NCBI GenBank assembly: GCA_903851445.1
Contig: CAINOH010000015.1
Coordinates: forward strand, 1 to 56,297
Reading direction: 5' to 3'
Length of the DNA: 56,297 bases
Origin: an uncultured Microcaldota archaeon
GTDB lineage: Archaea; Micrarchaeota; Micrarchaeia; Norongarragalinales; CAINOH01
In this document: positions 50,444-55,469 of the stretch, one piece after another
Position numbering within the stretch: the first letter of the stretch is position 1
How the letters are laid out: each line of letters begins with the position of its first letter
Position numbers and translations under genes: made by a program
The notes under the pieces: model-generated
Seen by the model: only the letters and a program-made list of their open reading frames with translations
Databases searched by the model: none
Told to the model about the DNA's origin: nothing

Positions 50444-51922
50444 ATGAAAGTCATAGTCCCAGATACAGGCGCGCTGATTGACGGCCGCATAACAGAGATG
50501 CTCTCAAAAAAAGGGGGCGCGGCAAAGGTAGTCATAAGCAAGGCGGCACTTGCCGAGCTTGAGCACCAGGCCAATTCCGGCCGCGAGACCGGGCTTGCGG
50601 GCCTGTCCGAAATCAGCAAGCTTGGCGAGCTTGCGGCTGCCGGAAAAATCGAGTTGGATTTTTCAGGAACAAGGCCGAAGCACTTCGAGATTGCCGGCGC
50701 GAGCCTGGGCGAAATCGACGCGCTGATTCGCGAGGAAGCCAAGCTCTACGAAGGCGCAACACTTATCACAACTGACAAGGTGCAGGCCGCAGTTGCAAGG
50801 GCCGAGGGCATACAGGTCGAATACCTGGAGCCCATAGTTGAGAAGGCGATGCTCGGGTTTGCACACTTCTTTGAAAGCGGGGACGTGATGTCCCTTCACA
50901 TCAAGGAAGGCGAGAAAGCGAGGGTGAAGCGCGGCCTGCCCGGACAGTTCGAGCTTGTGGATTACGCGGACAAAAAATACTCAAGAAGCGAACTTGACCA
51001 AATCCTGAAGCGTTGCGTGGAGTTCGCAAAGCGCGACGAGAACAGCTTCATCGAAATAGACAAGCTCGGAGCAACGGTCATACAGGCAGGGGAATACAGG
51101 ATTACGTTCACGCGGCGGCCGTTCTCCGAAAGCTCGGAGATTACGGTTGTAAAGCCCCTTGTAAAGCTTGCCCTCTCAGACTATGAGATTTCCGGAACAC
51201 TCTCAGCTCGGCTCGCAGCCAAGGCCGAGGGAATTATTGTCGCCGGGCCGCCCGGGAGCGGAAAGAGCACGTTTGTGAGCGCGCTTGCAGAAAGCTACGC
51301 CGATGCAAACAAGATTGTGAAGACCCTTGAACAGCCCCGCGATCTTCAAGTCTCAAGGCGAATCACGCAATACGCGCCGCTTGAGGGAAGCTTCGAGAAC
51401 GCAAGCGACATCCTGCTTCTTGTGCGGCCGGACTACACGATTTACGACGAGGTGCGAAAGACCGACGACTTCCGCGTGTTTGCGGACTTGCGCATGGCTG
51501 GAGTGGGAATGGTGGGAGTAATCCACGCATCCAAGCCCATTGACGCGGTTCAGCGCTTCTTCGGGAAGGTTGACCTCGGGCTGATTCCGCAAGTCATCGA
51601 CACGGTAATCTTCATCGAAAAGGGCCGGGTCGCAAAGGCGTACTCTCTTGACTTCTCCGTGCGCACGCCGTCCGGGATGATGGAAAAGGACCTAGCGCGG
51701 CCGGTGATTTCCGTCCGGGACCTCGAGACTGCCGCAATCGAGTACGAAATCTACAAGTACGGCGAGGAAACCGTTGTGTCGCCGCTGCGCGCTGCAAAGG
51801 AACGCGTTCCCGAACGGTTCGAAAAGCAAGGCGGCCGAGGACGCGATGTGCAGCCTTGGAAGAAAGGCTTTGACGGCGGCAACGGCCAGTTCTGGAAAAG
51901 CAAGGGCAAGCATAGGCGCTGA
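50444..51922 (+). CDS. PIN domain-PilT-type ATPase fusion
   Basis: A 492-residue archaeal protein joining an N-terminal PIN domain (VPDTGALIDGRI with the first aspartate, later acidic residues in ALAELEH and TTDKVQAAVA) to a PilT/VirB11-like ATPase. The Walker A is AGPPGSGKST near residue 270, with LLLVRPDYTIYDEVR as Walker B region. The C-terminal 50 residues are basic and glycine-rich. The family is conserved across archaea and probably couples RNA cleavage to ATP-driven unwinding or translocation, but its substrate is unproven. Start ATG follows an AAAGGTG site. Confidence 0.9.
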   Translation: MKVIVPDTGALIDGRITEMLSKKGGAAKVVISKAALAELEHQANSGRETGLAGLSEISKLGELAAAGKIELDFSGTRPKHFEIAGASLGEIDALIREEAKLYEGATLITTDKVQAAVARAEGIQVEYLEPIVEKAMLGFAHFFESGDVMSLHIKEGEKARVKRGLPGQFELVDYADKKYSRSELDQILKRCVEFAKRDENSFIEIDKLGATVIQAGEYRITFTRRPFSESSEITVVKPLVKLALSDYEISGTLSARLAAKAEGIIVAGPPGSGKSTFVSALAESYADANKIVKTLEQPRDLQVSRRITQYAPLEGSFENASDILLLVRPDYTIYDEVRKTDDFRVFADLRMAGVGMVGVIHASKPIDAVQRFFGKVDLGLIPQVIDTVIFIEKGRVAKAYSLDFSVRTPSGMMEKDLARPVISVRDLETAAIEYEIYKYGEETVVSPLRAAKERVPERFEKQGGRGRDVQPWKKGFDGGNGQFWKSKGKHRR

Positions 51923-51972: not shown

Positions 51973-52155
51973 CCGACTTGCCATTACGAATATTGTCGGC
52001 CTCACCCGGAGCTTTTTTGCAACGCCAATCGTCGAACTGCGATTGGGTTAAAAACGGCAAATCACTTTGTTGTCTATAGCGAACCGAGAACATATTTCGA
52101 CGTAATCTCGGTTGCGCTATAGGTAAAACGCAAAAAATCTGTTGTGTTTTGCCGT
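51973..52155 (+). other. Structured intergenic element before the acyl-CoA synthetase gene
   Basis: The 264-base gap holds several nested inverted repeats. CCAATCG (52025-52031) pairs with CGATTGG (52040-52046). A 16-pair stem with one bulged base joins 52074-52089 to 52106-52122 around a 16-base loop. ACGGCAAA (52054-52061) pairs with TTTGCCGT (52148-52155) and encloses that stem. A weaker CCGAC/GTCGG pair lies at 51973-51999. A T6 run at 52013-52018 probably ends the upstream transcript. The element may be a structured leader, a small RNA, or a degenerate mobile-element remnant. Confidence 0.5.
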
Positions 52156-52186
52156 AACCATCTATTCATAGCGGTGATTGCGTATA

Positions 52187-53962
52187 GTGGACAAGCTCGA
52201 ACAGCACAGGACAAAGTCAGGGGTGCCCCAGGAGGTCGTAAAACGCGACCTGTCCGGGCTCAAGGTCGAGCCCTTTGTCAAGGACTACGAGCAGGCCAGG
52301 CACAACTTTTCCTGGAAGCACATCGAAGAGCAGTTCAGCTGGCACAAGACAGGAAAGGTCAACGCGGCTTACGAGTGCATCGACAGGCACGCGGAGACTT
52401 GGAGAAAGAACAAGATTGCTCTATACTATTCGGATGACGGCCGCAAGGAAGAGTACACATTTCAGCAGATGTCAATGCTTTCGAACAAGTTCGCCAACGT
52501 GCTGAAAAAATACGAGGTACAGAAAGGCGACCGCGTATTCATATTCCTCCCGCGCGCCCCGGAACTTTACATCTCGTTCCTTGGAATCATCAAGACCGGC
52601 GCAATAGTCGGCCCGCTTTTCGAGGCGTTCATGGAAGACGCTGTGCGCGACAGGCTGCAGGACAGCACCGCGACAGTGCTTGTGACCAATCCCGAGCTCC
52701 TCAAGCGCATCCCACTCAAGGAAATCCCCTCGCTAAAGCACATCATCCTCGTGGGAGACCTTTCCAAGCACAAGCTCGCACCGCACGAGCATTCCTATGA
52801 GGAGGAAATGGCAAAGGCGCCTGAAAAGTTCGACACCGAGTGGGTTGACTTGGAGGATGGCCTTATTTTGCACTACACCAGCGGCTCAACCGGCAAGCCC
52901 AAGGGCGCGCTGCACGTGCACAACGCCATGATTGGCCATTACGCAACAGGAAAGTACACGCTTGACCTGCACGAGGAGGACATCTACTGGTGCACTGCTG
53001 ACCCGGGCTGGGTCACCGGCACGAGCTACGGGATTTTCGCGCCCTGGCTCAACGGGATATCCGTGGTGGTTCTCGGCGGCCGGTTTGACGTTGACAGGTG
53101 GTACAAGACAGTACAGGACTACAAAGTCTCGATTTGGTACAGCGCACCAACCGCATTCCGGCTCTTGATGGCCGCTGGTGACGAAAAGGTCGCACAATAC
53201 GATTTCTCCTGCGTTCGGCACATCTACTCGGTTGGCGAGCCTCTGAACCCCGAAGTGGTCAAGTGGGGGCTCAAAGTATTCAAAAAGACGATTATGGAGA
53301 ACTGGTGGATGACCGAGACCGGGATGCACCTCATATGCAACTTTGCGGGAATGCCGCTCAAGCTCAGCTCGATGGGAAAATCCTTCCCCGGAACCGAGGC
53401 TGCGATTGTCGATGCCGACGGCAACAGGATGAAGCCGTACGAAATCGGCGACCTTGCGGTGAAGCGTGGCTGGCCGTCCATGATGCGCCAGATTTGGAAC
53501 AACCCCGAAAAGTACGAGGAGTATTTCCGCGGGAAGGACAAGGAGTGGTACGTCTCGGGCGACTCGGCGTACCAGGACGAGGAGGGCTACTTCTTCTTCG
53601 AAGGCAGGATTGACGACGTCATCAAGACTAGCGGCGAGCGGGTCGGGCCTTTCGAAGTTGAAAGCGCGCTGCTTGAGCACAAGGCTGTTGCCGAGGCAGG
53701 GGTCATCGGGAAGCCCGACTTGATCCGCGGTGCAATCATCAAGGCGTTCGTGGTTCTCAAGAAAAGCCACAAGCCCAGCGAGGAGCTCAAGACCGAGCTG
53801 ATGGAGTTCGTCAAGCTCAAGCTTGCAGCCCACGCAAAGCCGCGGGAGATTGAATTCCTAGACAAGCTCCCGAAGACGCGGTCGGGAAAGATAATGCGCA
53901 GGGTCTTGAGGGCGAAGGAACTCGGCCTGCCGATGGGAGACCTGTCAACGATGGAAGACTAG
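52187..53962 (+). CDS. acsA: Acyl/acetyl-CoA synthetase, AMP-forming
   Basis: A 591-residue ANL-superfamily enzyme closest to acetyl-CoA synthetases. It has the P-loop YTSGSTGKPKGALH, a CTADPGWVTGTSYG block, WMTETGMH, the hinge GRIDDVIKTSGERVGPFEVE and the adenylation lysine in KTRSGKIMRRVL. It activates a carboxylate with ATP and transfers it to CoA. The usual start is uncertain: TTG 52178 begins the frame, but GGTGA is correctly spaced from GTG 52187. The upstream gap holds strong hairpins that could regulate it. Confidence 0.92.
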   Translation: MDKLEQHRTKSGVPQEVVKRDLSGLKVEPFVKDYEQARHNFSWKHIEEQFSWHKTGKVNAAYECIDRHAETWRKNKIALYYSDDGRKEEYTFQQMSMLSNKFANVLKKYEVQKGDRVFIFLPRAPELYISFLGIIKTGAIVGPLFEAFMEDAVRDRLQDSTATVLVTNPELLKRIPLKEIPSLKHIILVGDLSKHKLAPHEHSYEEEMAKAPEKFDTEWVDLEDGLILHYTSGSTGKPKGALHVHNAMIGHYATGKYTLDLHEEDIYWCTADPGWVTGTSYGIFAPWLNGISVVVLGGRFDVDRWYKTVQDYKVSIWYSAPTAFRLLMAAGDEKVAQYDFSCVRHIYSVGEPLNPEVVKWGLKVFKKTIMENWWMTETGMHLICNFAGMPLKLSSMGKSFPGTEAAIVDADGNRMKPYEIGDLAVKRGWPSMMRQIWNNPEKYEEYFRGKDKEWYVSGDSAYQDEEGYFFFEGRIDDVIKTSGERVGPFEVESALLEHKAVAEAGVIGKPDLIRGAIIKAFVVLKKSHKPSEELKTELMEFVKLKLAAHAKPREIEFLDKLPKTRSGKIMRRVLRAKELGLPMGDLSTMED

Positions 53963-54237
53963 ATTGTCCAGTACCACTCCTCATACTGCTTGTGGTCGCC
54001 TACGAAGTGAATGATTTTGACGCGCCGTTCCTCGTCGACCTTGTAGGCAACCCTGTAGCCGCCGACTTCCTCAACGTGGTAGCGTGATGAATGAAGTCCG
54101 CGTCCAAACAGCGACTGCTTCATGTGCCCAAACTTCGTGAGTATGCGCTGCTTTGTAGACTTGTCAAAATGCACGAAGTGCTTGTCCCATCCGGGCCAGA
54201 ATTCAAGAGAATACGGCCGTAAGTCGAAAAGCGTCAC
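53959..54237 (-). CDS. RelE/ParE-family toxin
   Basis: A 92-residue basic protein with the RelE-type layout: FDKSTKQRILTKFGHMKQSL helices, then HVEEVGGYRVAYKVDEERRVKIIHFVGDHKQYEEWY. Such toxins cleave mRNA on the ribosome or block gyrase. The GTG start overlaps the antitoxin stop (GTGA), and the stop overlaps the convergent synthetase stop by four bases. The catalytic residues of this subgroup are not defined well enough to confirm activity. Confidence 0.8.
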   Translation of the reverse strand: MTLFDLRPYSLEFWPGWDKHFVHFDKSTKQRILTKFGHMKQSLFGRGLHSSRYHVEEVGGYRVAYKVDEERRVKIIHFVGDHKQYEEWYWTI

Positions 54238-54482
54238 CTGTATTTCGAGAGCGCTTCGTCTTCAGTAAGGTAGCGTTTCTTTTTTGACAACATTTCGTTT
54301 TCCTGGCGCTCAATCTTTCGTGCAACAAGCTCGGCTTCCAAGTCCTTCACTATGGAATACTCTTTGTTCAGGGCGAATATGCCCATGCGAAGAGCCTCGG
54401 TCTTGGAACGCGCTATGCCAAGGTCAACTGCCTTTTGGAGGATAAGCTCAGGAGCGCCAACGAATGAAAGTGTAGTCCGCAT
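54234..54482 (-). CDS. Ribbon-helix-helix antitoxin
   Basis: An 82-residue protein. The first 45 residues (TTLSFVGAPELILQKAVDLG, then SKTEALRMGIFAL) form a ribbon-helix-helix DNA-binding fold. The C-terminal part is a long charged helix suited to wrapping the toxin. GGTGA is five bases ahead of ATG 54482 and CATTTATATG near 54520 is the TATA box; the longer upstream frame is not needed. It heads the pair and overlaps the toxin by four bases. Confidence 0.8.
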   Translation of the reverse strand: MRTTLSFVGAPELILQKAVDLGIARSKTEALRMGIFALNKEYSIVKDLEAELVARKIERQENEMLSKKKRYLTEDEALSKYR

Positions 54483-54599
54483 CAGATTCACCAGCACTAA
54501 TTGATGCACTAAAGACATATAAATGATGCACATACAGGCGTATTTTAATGCAAACACTGAGGCGTAACGCCGATTAAGAGGAGGGCACAAATAGTATTC

Positions 54600-55469
54600 A
54601 TGCAACAAATCAACGTGCCTAACTTGAATCTGAGCCTCTCATTTTTTTCAGGCCAGGTCTTCGACTGGGAACACAACAGGAAAACCGATGAGTATAGCGG
54701 CGACCTGCTCGGCGATTTTGCAACTCTTAAACATGACTGCAAACGTCAAGAGCTACTGTTTTCTGGAACCACCAAGGAAAAAGTGAGGGAATTCTTTGAC
54801 CTTGGCGCAGATTACCAGCGCATGCTCGATTCCATAAGGAAAGCCGACCCCAAACTCTACTCCGACTCGAAAAGATACTTCGGCCTGCGCATCCTGCGCC
54901 AGGACTCCTGGAAGGCGGCAGTCGCTTTCGTGTGCTCGCAGAACAACAACATTCCAAGGATTAGGAAAATGTTGGGGGCGTTGAGGAAAAAGTATGGAAA
55001 GGGTGGTGCGTTCCCGACCGCCCAGAGACTCTCAAAGGCCACTCTTTTGGGATTGCGCGGCCTTGGACTGGGCTACCGCGCCGAATACATCCACAGCCTT
55101 GCAAAGAACGTCGCAAGCGGAAAGCTTGACTTTGCGCAACTGGAAAAAAGGTCATACGAGGACGCGTTCGTTCATCTTATTGACAACCAGCACGGAGTGG
55201 GACCAAAGGTGGCGGATTGCCTGCTCCTTTACGGCCTTGGAAAGATGGATGCGTTCCCAACTGACGTCTGGGTAAGAAAGGCAGTCCAGCGCCGCTATAG
55301 CAAGGAACTCGACGAGTTCGCGGAATGCGAAAAATGCAGGGCAAAGGAAGTACCCTACCAAATCATCGGCTCGTTCGCAAGGAAGAAGTTCGGAAAGGAC
55401 GCAGGGTATGCGCAGCAGTTTCTCTTCCTGTGCGAAAGGAATTTAGAGAACAAGAGACGGAAATGGTAA
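54600..55469 (+). CDS. ogg: OGG1-like 8-oxoguanine DNA glycosylase/lyase
   Basis: A 289-residue HhH-GPD glycosylase that removes oxidised guanine. The hairpin and catalytic lysine stand in GVGPKVADCLLLYGLG (K203), and the catalytic aspartate is D222 in FPTDVWVRKAV. An N-terminal beta domain precedes it (residues 1-70, with FFSGQVFDWEH). This corresponds to the OGG1 or Ogg2 lineage rather than AGOG. The last 30 residues are basic. A downstream hydrolase overlaps its stop codon. GAGGAGGG lies about 15 bases before the start, somewhat far. Confidence 0.92.
   Translation: MQQINVPNLNLSLSFFSGQVFDWEHNRKTDEYSGDLLGDFATLKHDCKRQELLFSGTTKEKVREFFDLGADYQRMLDSIRKADPKLYSDSKRYFGLRILRQDSWKAAVAFVCSQNNNIPRIRKMLGALRKKYGKGGAFPTAQRLSKATLLGLRGLGLGYRAEYIHSLAKNVASGKLDFAQLEKRSYEDAFVHLIDNQHGVGPKVADCLLLYGLGKMDAFPTDVWVRKAVQRRYSKELDEFAECEKCRAKEVPYQIIGSFARKKFGKDAGYAQQFLFLCERNLENKRRKW

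Follow-up and report, generated by a model that had tools for sequence, protein, structure and literature searches.

Introduction

REPINs, described together with RAYT in Pseudomonas and others (PMC3116915), are dispersed as inverted doublets, and the BIMEs and REPs of enterobacteria and Stenotrophomonas (PMC2817692) alternate palindromic units. CGTC-tagged REPs are abundant palindromic repeats without a dedicated transposase (PMC3733652). Short MITEs are described from the archaea Sulfolobus and Haloquadratum (PMC10969869), and the text of a 2025 survey of REPs in bacteria and archaea (PMC12306157) mentions neither DPANN nor Micrarchaeota. In the literature outside subscription papers and preprints, we found no description of a Micrarchaeota double-hairpin repeat family.

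Here we analyze a window of 56,297 nucleotides (the whole stretch of DNA under study) from the genome of an uncultured Microcaldota archaeon (G000; 1.09 Mb, 81% complete). A sequence-only reading had proposed that positions 51973-52186 form a highly structured leader upstream of an acyl-CoA synthetase gene (acs), which might sense a metabolite, or else a small RNA or the remnant of a MITE-like element. Judged by comparison with related genomes, the feature is a worn, decayed copy of a short two-hairpin repeat dispersed in Micrarchaeota. We consider this repeat to be probably a non-autonomous mobile element of REPIN/BIME-like kind, with a probability of roughly 0.78.

Results

Refolding of positions 52020-52160 produced four hairpins in succession (-52.5 kcal/mol), a structure far beyond chance (z = -6.1; 0 of 200 dinucleotide shuffles equaled it), and the full 51973-52186 gave a z score of -3.8. 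The seven-pair hairpin and the 16-pair hairpin with one bulge, a G, that the sequence-only reading had named are both present (Table 1), and its weaker fourth pairing reappeared on refolding as an A+T-rich hairpin. For the proposed enclosing stem of eight pairs, the complementarity exists, but the stem competes with the local hairpins at 52054-52073 and 52122-52153, and the minimum-energy fold prefers the latter two; the 5' arm of the first of these can alternatively pair with 52147-52155. As the enclosing stem is missing from a second copy in the genome, it was ruled out as part of the element. The supposed T6 terminator is a mere run of T, since a scan revealed no terminator-like stem on the plus strand. 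The hairpins of the structured stretch are real, but the unit held in common with other loci is confined to 52075-52156 and does not span all of 51973-52186.

TABLE 1 Features of the element locus and of the adjoining genes
Feature	Positions	Strand	Basis or remark
Upstream gene, PIN-domain ATPase (PRK13764 / PINA-like)	50444-51922	+	NCBIfam NF010335, over cut-off
T6 run	52013-52018	+	Sequence; downstream of the PINA-like ATPase gene
Short extra hairpin, CCAATCG/CGATTGG	52026-52032/52039-52045 (52026-52045)	.	Fold; adjoins the element
Extra hairpin, ACGGCAAA/UUUGUUGU	52054-52073	.	Fold; missing from the secY copy
Enclosing stem, ACGGCAAA/TTTTGCCGT	52054-52061/52147-52155		Complementarity present in the sequence
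Long hairpin, CTATAGCG-AACCGAGA / TCTCGGTT-G-CGCTATAG	52074-52089/52106-52122		Contains a single bulged G
Entire copy of the element (two hairpins), TATAGC...GCCGTA	52075-52156	+	R1 match, 108.7 bits (this copy is among the training sequences of R1)
Unit A, 15-16 bp stem, bulged G at 52114, 16-nt loop	52075-52121	+	R2 match and fold
A+T-rich hairpin	52122-52153		Fold
Unit B, opposite in orientation to unit A, with a degenerate loop and an A+T-rich stem of 12 bp	52122-52156	-	Fold
Downstream gene acs, acetate--CoA ligase (AMP-forming)	52187-53962	+	NCBIfam NF003313, over cut-off, 930 bits; ORF

The boundaries of the element were taken from 51 distinct doublet copies, and the window copy measures 82 bp against the usual 95 bp in relatives. 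Unit A has the foot TATAGC, carries the family motif ...TTTCGAC in its loop, and matched R2, a single-unit covariance model whose training includes this copy, with 43.3 bits (E 1.8e-7 in the window's genome). The CCAATCG/CGATTGG hairpin has no second copy that we could find in this genome; extra short hairpins are also present in some copies of the element in relatives, and it is possibly a module of a mosaic. The acs gene starts with GTG at 52187, with an in-frame TTG alternative at 52178. Directly after it, on the minus strand (53959-54608), lie two short overlapping genes of 92 and 124 amino acids that resemble by eye a RelE/ParE-type toxin and antitoxin, neither of which has an NCBIfam match.

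Searching G000 revealed one further significant place, at 396061-396117 of contig C9, between rpl15 and secY (gene names assigned by eye on the basis of the translations). The secY copy has the architecture of the window copy, with a first hairpin of CTATARCGAACCGAG-loop-CTCGGTTGCGCTATA and a second of GYAAAACG-loop-CGTTTTGCYGTA, but the hairpins that flank the window copy are absent from it. When the two are compared, the second hairpin stays paired through changes of G-C to A-U, U-G to C-G, and G-U to G-C, and the first hairpin shows one A-C mismatch. A CTCCGA/TCGGAG hairpin followed by T5, terminator-like in form, separates the secY copy from the start of that gene (L008:2156-2190), inside a normally co-transcribed ribosomal operon. 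A covariance model trained solely on the acs and secY copies (R1; all covariance-model E-values are rough) detected a third, weaker copy between the tRNA-Lys and tRNA-Cys genes (E 2.8e-6), and the recognizable copies in G000 number only three. The same model gave matches elsewhere in the order, in G018, G007, G012, G027, and G028, with E-values down to 1e-4.

The copies in relatives reveal the design of the family. Each unit reads 5'-TAYAGC-stem-AAAGTnnTnCGA...-stem'-GCWA, and a second unit follows in inverted orientation within a few bases; the typical element (TAYAGC...GCTRTA) is exactly 95 bp long and consists of two hairpin units of about 46 nt. Foot and loop motif are common to all subtypes, whereas the stem letters vary from copy to copy and are typical of a given genome and subtype (e.g., AAACCAAG, AAAACGCG, GGACTCGG, and AGAAGGCA). 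In an alignment of 21 units, each of the 10 stem pairs changes on both sides in some sequence, and pairing holds in 93.8% of cells, compared with 33-46% in slid controls. Among 43 nonredundant units, 96.7% of cells are paired and again all 10 pairs covary, a set that leans toward pairing because most of its units were chosen by a scanner demanding 9 of 10 pairs. Covariation in relatives, which the sequence-only reading had suggested looking for, is thus strong for a dispersed repeat, but not for a leader of acs. The 51 doublets, with plus and minus halves no more than 8 nt apart, were exactly 95 bp long in 35 cases; their ends read TATAGC (70 of 102) or TACAGC (20 of 102), and their flanks hold no information save a T at -1 (63 of 102). 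Other families of the class (L100, L101, L104, and L108) have the repeat in a second length class, in which the loop of the first unit is longer (units of 61-65 nt).

Known families did not account for the repeat. Rfam 15 gave no family in the window apart from one tRNA, nothing meaningful for the stretch at relaxed thresholds, and, for eight members of the family, no match even with E relaxed to 1. The core boxes of integron attC sites (GTTRRRY / RYYYAAC) were sought as well, and on inspection (A4 and A6) no GTTRRRY stands at the foot, where the base is TAYAGC/GCWA. A pattern search of viral contigs returned chance-like matches only, and blastn of the window sequence against phages and relatives from the order returned short pieces only.

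At E <= 0.01, R2 recognized the element in 33 of the 301 genomes searched in the class and was negative in 268; in 170 kb of control loci, no match fell below an E of 0.29. Six genomes had at least 18-21 matches; since just 20 first-look candidates were scored, the true copy numbers are higher. Some Micrarchaeota genomes hold dozens of copies, and G012 has 31 element loci in 1.11 Mb. When 84,980 species genomes were scanned with an exact pattern, 51 stretches were found, nearly all titled Micrarchaeota. A lone unit (45 bits) lies on a contig that bears the title Diapherotrites. A Micrarchaeota-type doublet on L131 (MFXJ01000083.1), filed under Peregrinibacteria, was not accepted as a bacterial copy, as the same contig encodes an archaeal-type alanyl-tRNA synthetase (alaS) and is probably misbinned.

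Copies differ in place between congeners. Elements of about 96 bp in G008 are 90-98% identical to elements at unrelated places in its congener G012, and the aligned genes of the two are mostly 65-76% identical (best, about 85%). One gap between an orthologous gene pair holds an element in G008, unrelated sequence in G023, and another subtype at another offset in G012; a copy 93% identical to the gap element of G008 sits elsewhere in G023. At the 3' end of purD (named by eye), G008 has a unit and G012 has none. Units are also re-paired, type 14 occurring with types 0, 3, 15, and 33 and type 15 with types 5, 14, 17, and 34, and there are tandem doublets, arrays, and forms with four additional short hairpins. 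On sequence comparison, we read this exchange of partners and these forms as mosaic behavior. Gene conversion or selection, in place of transposition, could account for some of the resemblance between copies. A second type of module was seen in four G012 copies (L220:3300-3540, L212:11405-11645, L232:6577-6816, and L226:17836-18075), in which four extra perfect short hairpins inside unit A have CTTGC or CACAA stems that differ between copies.

The earlier suggestion of a mobile-element remnant is supported by these data, with the correction that the ends are those of the element copy in Table 1 and not ACGGCAAA. Such a remnant might descend from a cut-and-paste, TA-target transposon of the IS630/Tc1 type, in which case TA[YAGC...GCTR]TA would serve as short terminal inverted repeats that are bound in double-stranded form, and the hairpins would be a by-product. 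TA stands at nearly all doublet ends and T is favored just outside, as with insertion at TTAA; the ends are sharp, and the spread is intergenic. Correia-type bacterial MITEs likewise begin with TATAG. Among the 51 doublets, no target duplication was found beyond a possible TA, and the empty-site flank at the orthologous gap is too diverged to display a TA duplication. Against this origin, some copies begin with AATAGC, and the two stems of an element are often unlike in their letters, which leaves a common terminal repeat of just about 7-10 bp, yet each stem stays paired. Moreover, the IS630-type domain DDE_3 (PF13358) occurs in just 4 of 29 genomes of the order, among element carriers only in G018 and G009, and was not found in G007, G008, G012, G027, or G028. 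We regard a MITE of this type as unlikely.

Other candidate movers fared no better. Y1 transposases (PF01797) are absent from the element-rich draft genomes G008, G012, G018, G027, and G028, and they occur in 12 of 33 genomes with elements and 98 of 268 without, frequencies so alike that no association is indicated and Y1 was rejected as a partner. Reverse transcriptase was found in none of the genomes searched and, like IS630, does not track the element; both were rejected. All of these absences are soft, since the completeness of these draft genomes is estimated at 54-100%.

Alternatively, the doublets may serve the host as RNA, acting as 3' or 5' untranslated elements (in termination, protection of mRNA ends, or protein binding) that recombination disperses and selection on RNA structure maintains. 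The very strong covariation of the stems and the conserved loop motif are in line with such a role, as are gene contexts (from simple longest-ORF calls), where in a mixed set many copies lie between convergent genes and several a few nucleotides past stop codons. A strong preference for convergent gaps, suggested by that set, is not claimed, since the excess in G012 is weak (7 of 22 element gaps against 154 of 690 background gaps). The neighbors are diverse, including secY, tRNA genes, purD, and many others, the sites are mostly intergenic, and the proteins adjoining the G012 elements have no family in common. Presence and absence at orthologous gaps, the mixed orientation and gene context of copies, inverted halves that render the element nearly symmetric on both strands, and the want of an Rfam match all speak against a host function, which we judge quite unlikely as the main explanation.

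A riboswitch-like, metabolite-sensing leader specific to acs is very improbable: the strong fold lies immediately upstream of the GTG and the acs and secY copies of G000 are both in sense orientation, but 13 loci with synthetase homologs in 12 relatives gave no element match, the enclosing stem is not conserved, and a near-identical architecture recurs upstream of secY, between two tRNA genes, and at dozens of unrelated sites.

Discussion

We favor the reading of the element as a non-autonomous mobile repeat. It would have spread as mobile DNA, with an enzyme acting in trans that recognizes the folded single strand by its foot, stem shape, and loop and not by the letters of the stem, and new copies would insert mainly between genes. 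The window copy is probably part of the spacer between the PINA-like ATPase gene and acs and perhaps also lies within untranslated RNA between them, be it the leader of acs or the 3' end of the ATPase transcript, or it may be untranscribed; if transcribed, it may have a role there as RNA. A more tentative proposal, which we put forward as a possibility with the odds against it, is that these repeats form a distinct class of mobile repeat in archaea, in which modules recognized by shape, foot, and loop, and not by the sequence of the stem, reassort and an enzyme other than a Y1/RAYT or known DDE transposase moves them in trans.

The family represents a REPIN/BIME-like mosaic repeat with unusually clear covariation in streamlined Micrarchaeota, where dozens of copies are found even in genomes of 0.7-1.4 Mb. 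Should its spread be confirmed, the folded hairpins are moved in these archaea either by an unrecognized enzyme or by a known transposase acting at a distance. The case also calls for caution before such intergenic folds in DPANN genomes are taken for riboswitches.

Among known systems, archaeal MITEs (PMC10969869) are likewise short, noncoding, dispersed elements with possible TA ends, but the Micrarchaeota repeat is an internal double hairpin with covarying stems, and no parent insertion sequence was found for it. The CGTC REPs (PMC3733652) set a precedent for REP-like repeats that have no transposase of their own, although their tag is another one and they are described as short stem-loops and not as a double-hairpin unit. 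With BIMEs and REPs (PMC2817692), the repeat shares alternating palindromic units, mosaic combinations, hybrid arrays, and changes that keep the palindrome; it differs in lacking a GTAG tag and a linked tyrosine transposase gene and in its longer, motif-bearing loops. With REPINs (PMC3116915), it shares an inverted doublet as the dispersed unit, a similar size (about 70-110 bp), intergenic location, doublets that also occur in clusters, compensatory changes that keep pairing, and subtypes that differ between genomes. Unlike in REPINs, however, each half is a complete hairpin with a stem of 10-16 bp and a loop of about 16-22 nt, the foot is TAYAGC in place of the GTAG (or GGAG) tag of REPINs and REP-BIMEs, the hosts are DPANN archaea, and there is no association with Y1/RAYT genes. 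Because it has neither a GTAG foot nor a RAYT association, we liken the repeat to REPINs and BIMEs and do not class it as a member. REPINs (PMC3116915) and BIME-1 (PMC2817692) are nonetheless the closest in design, and by analogy the Micrarchaeota repeat would work like these bacterial repeats.
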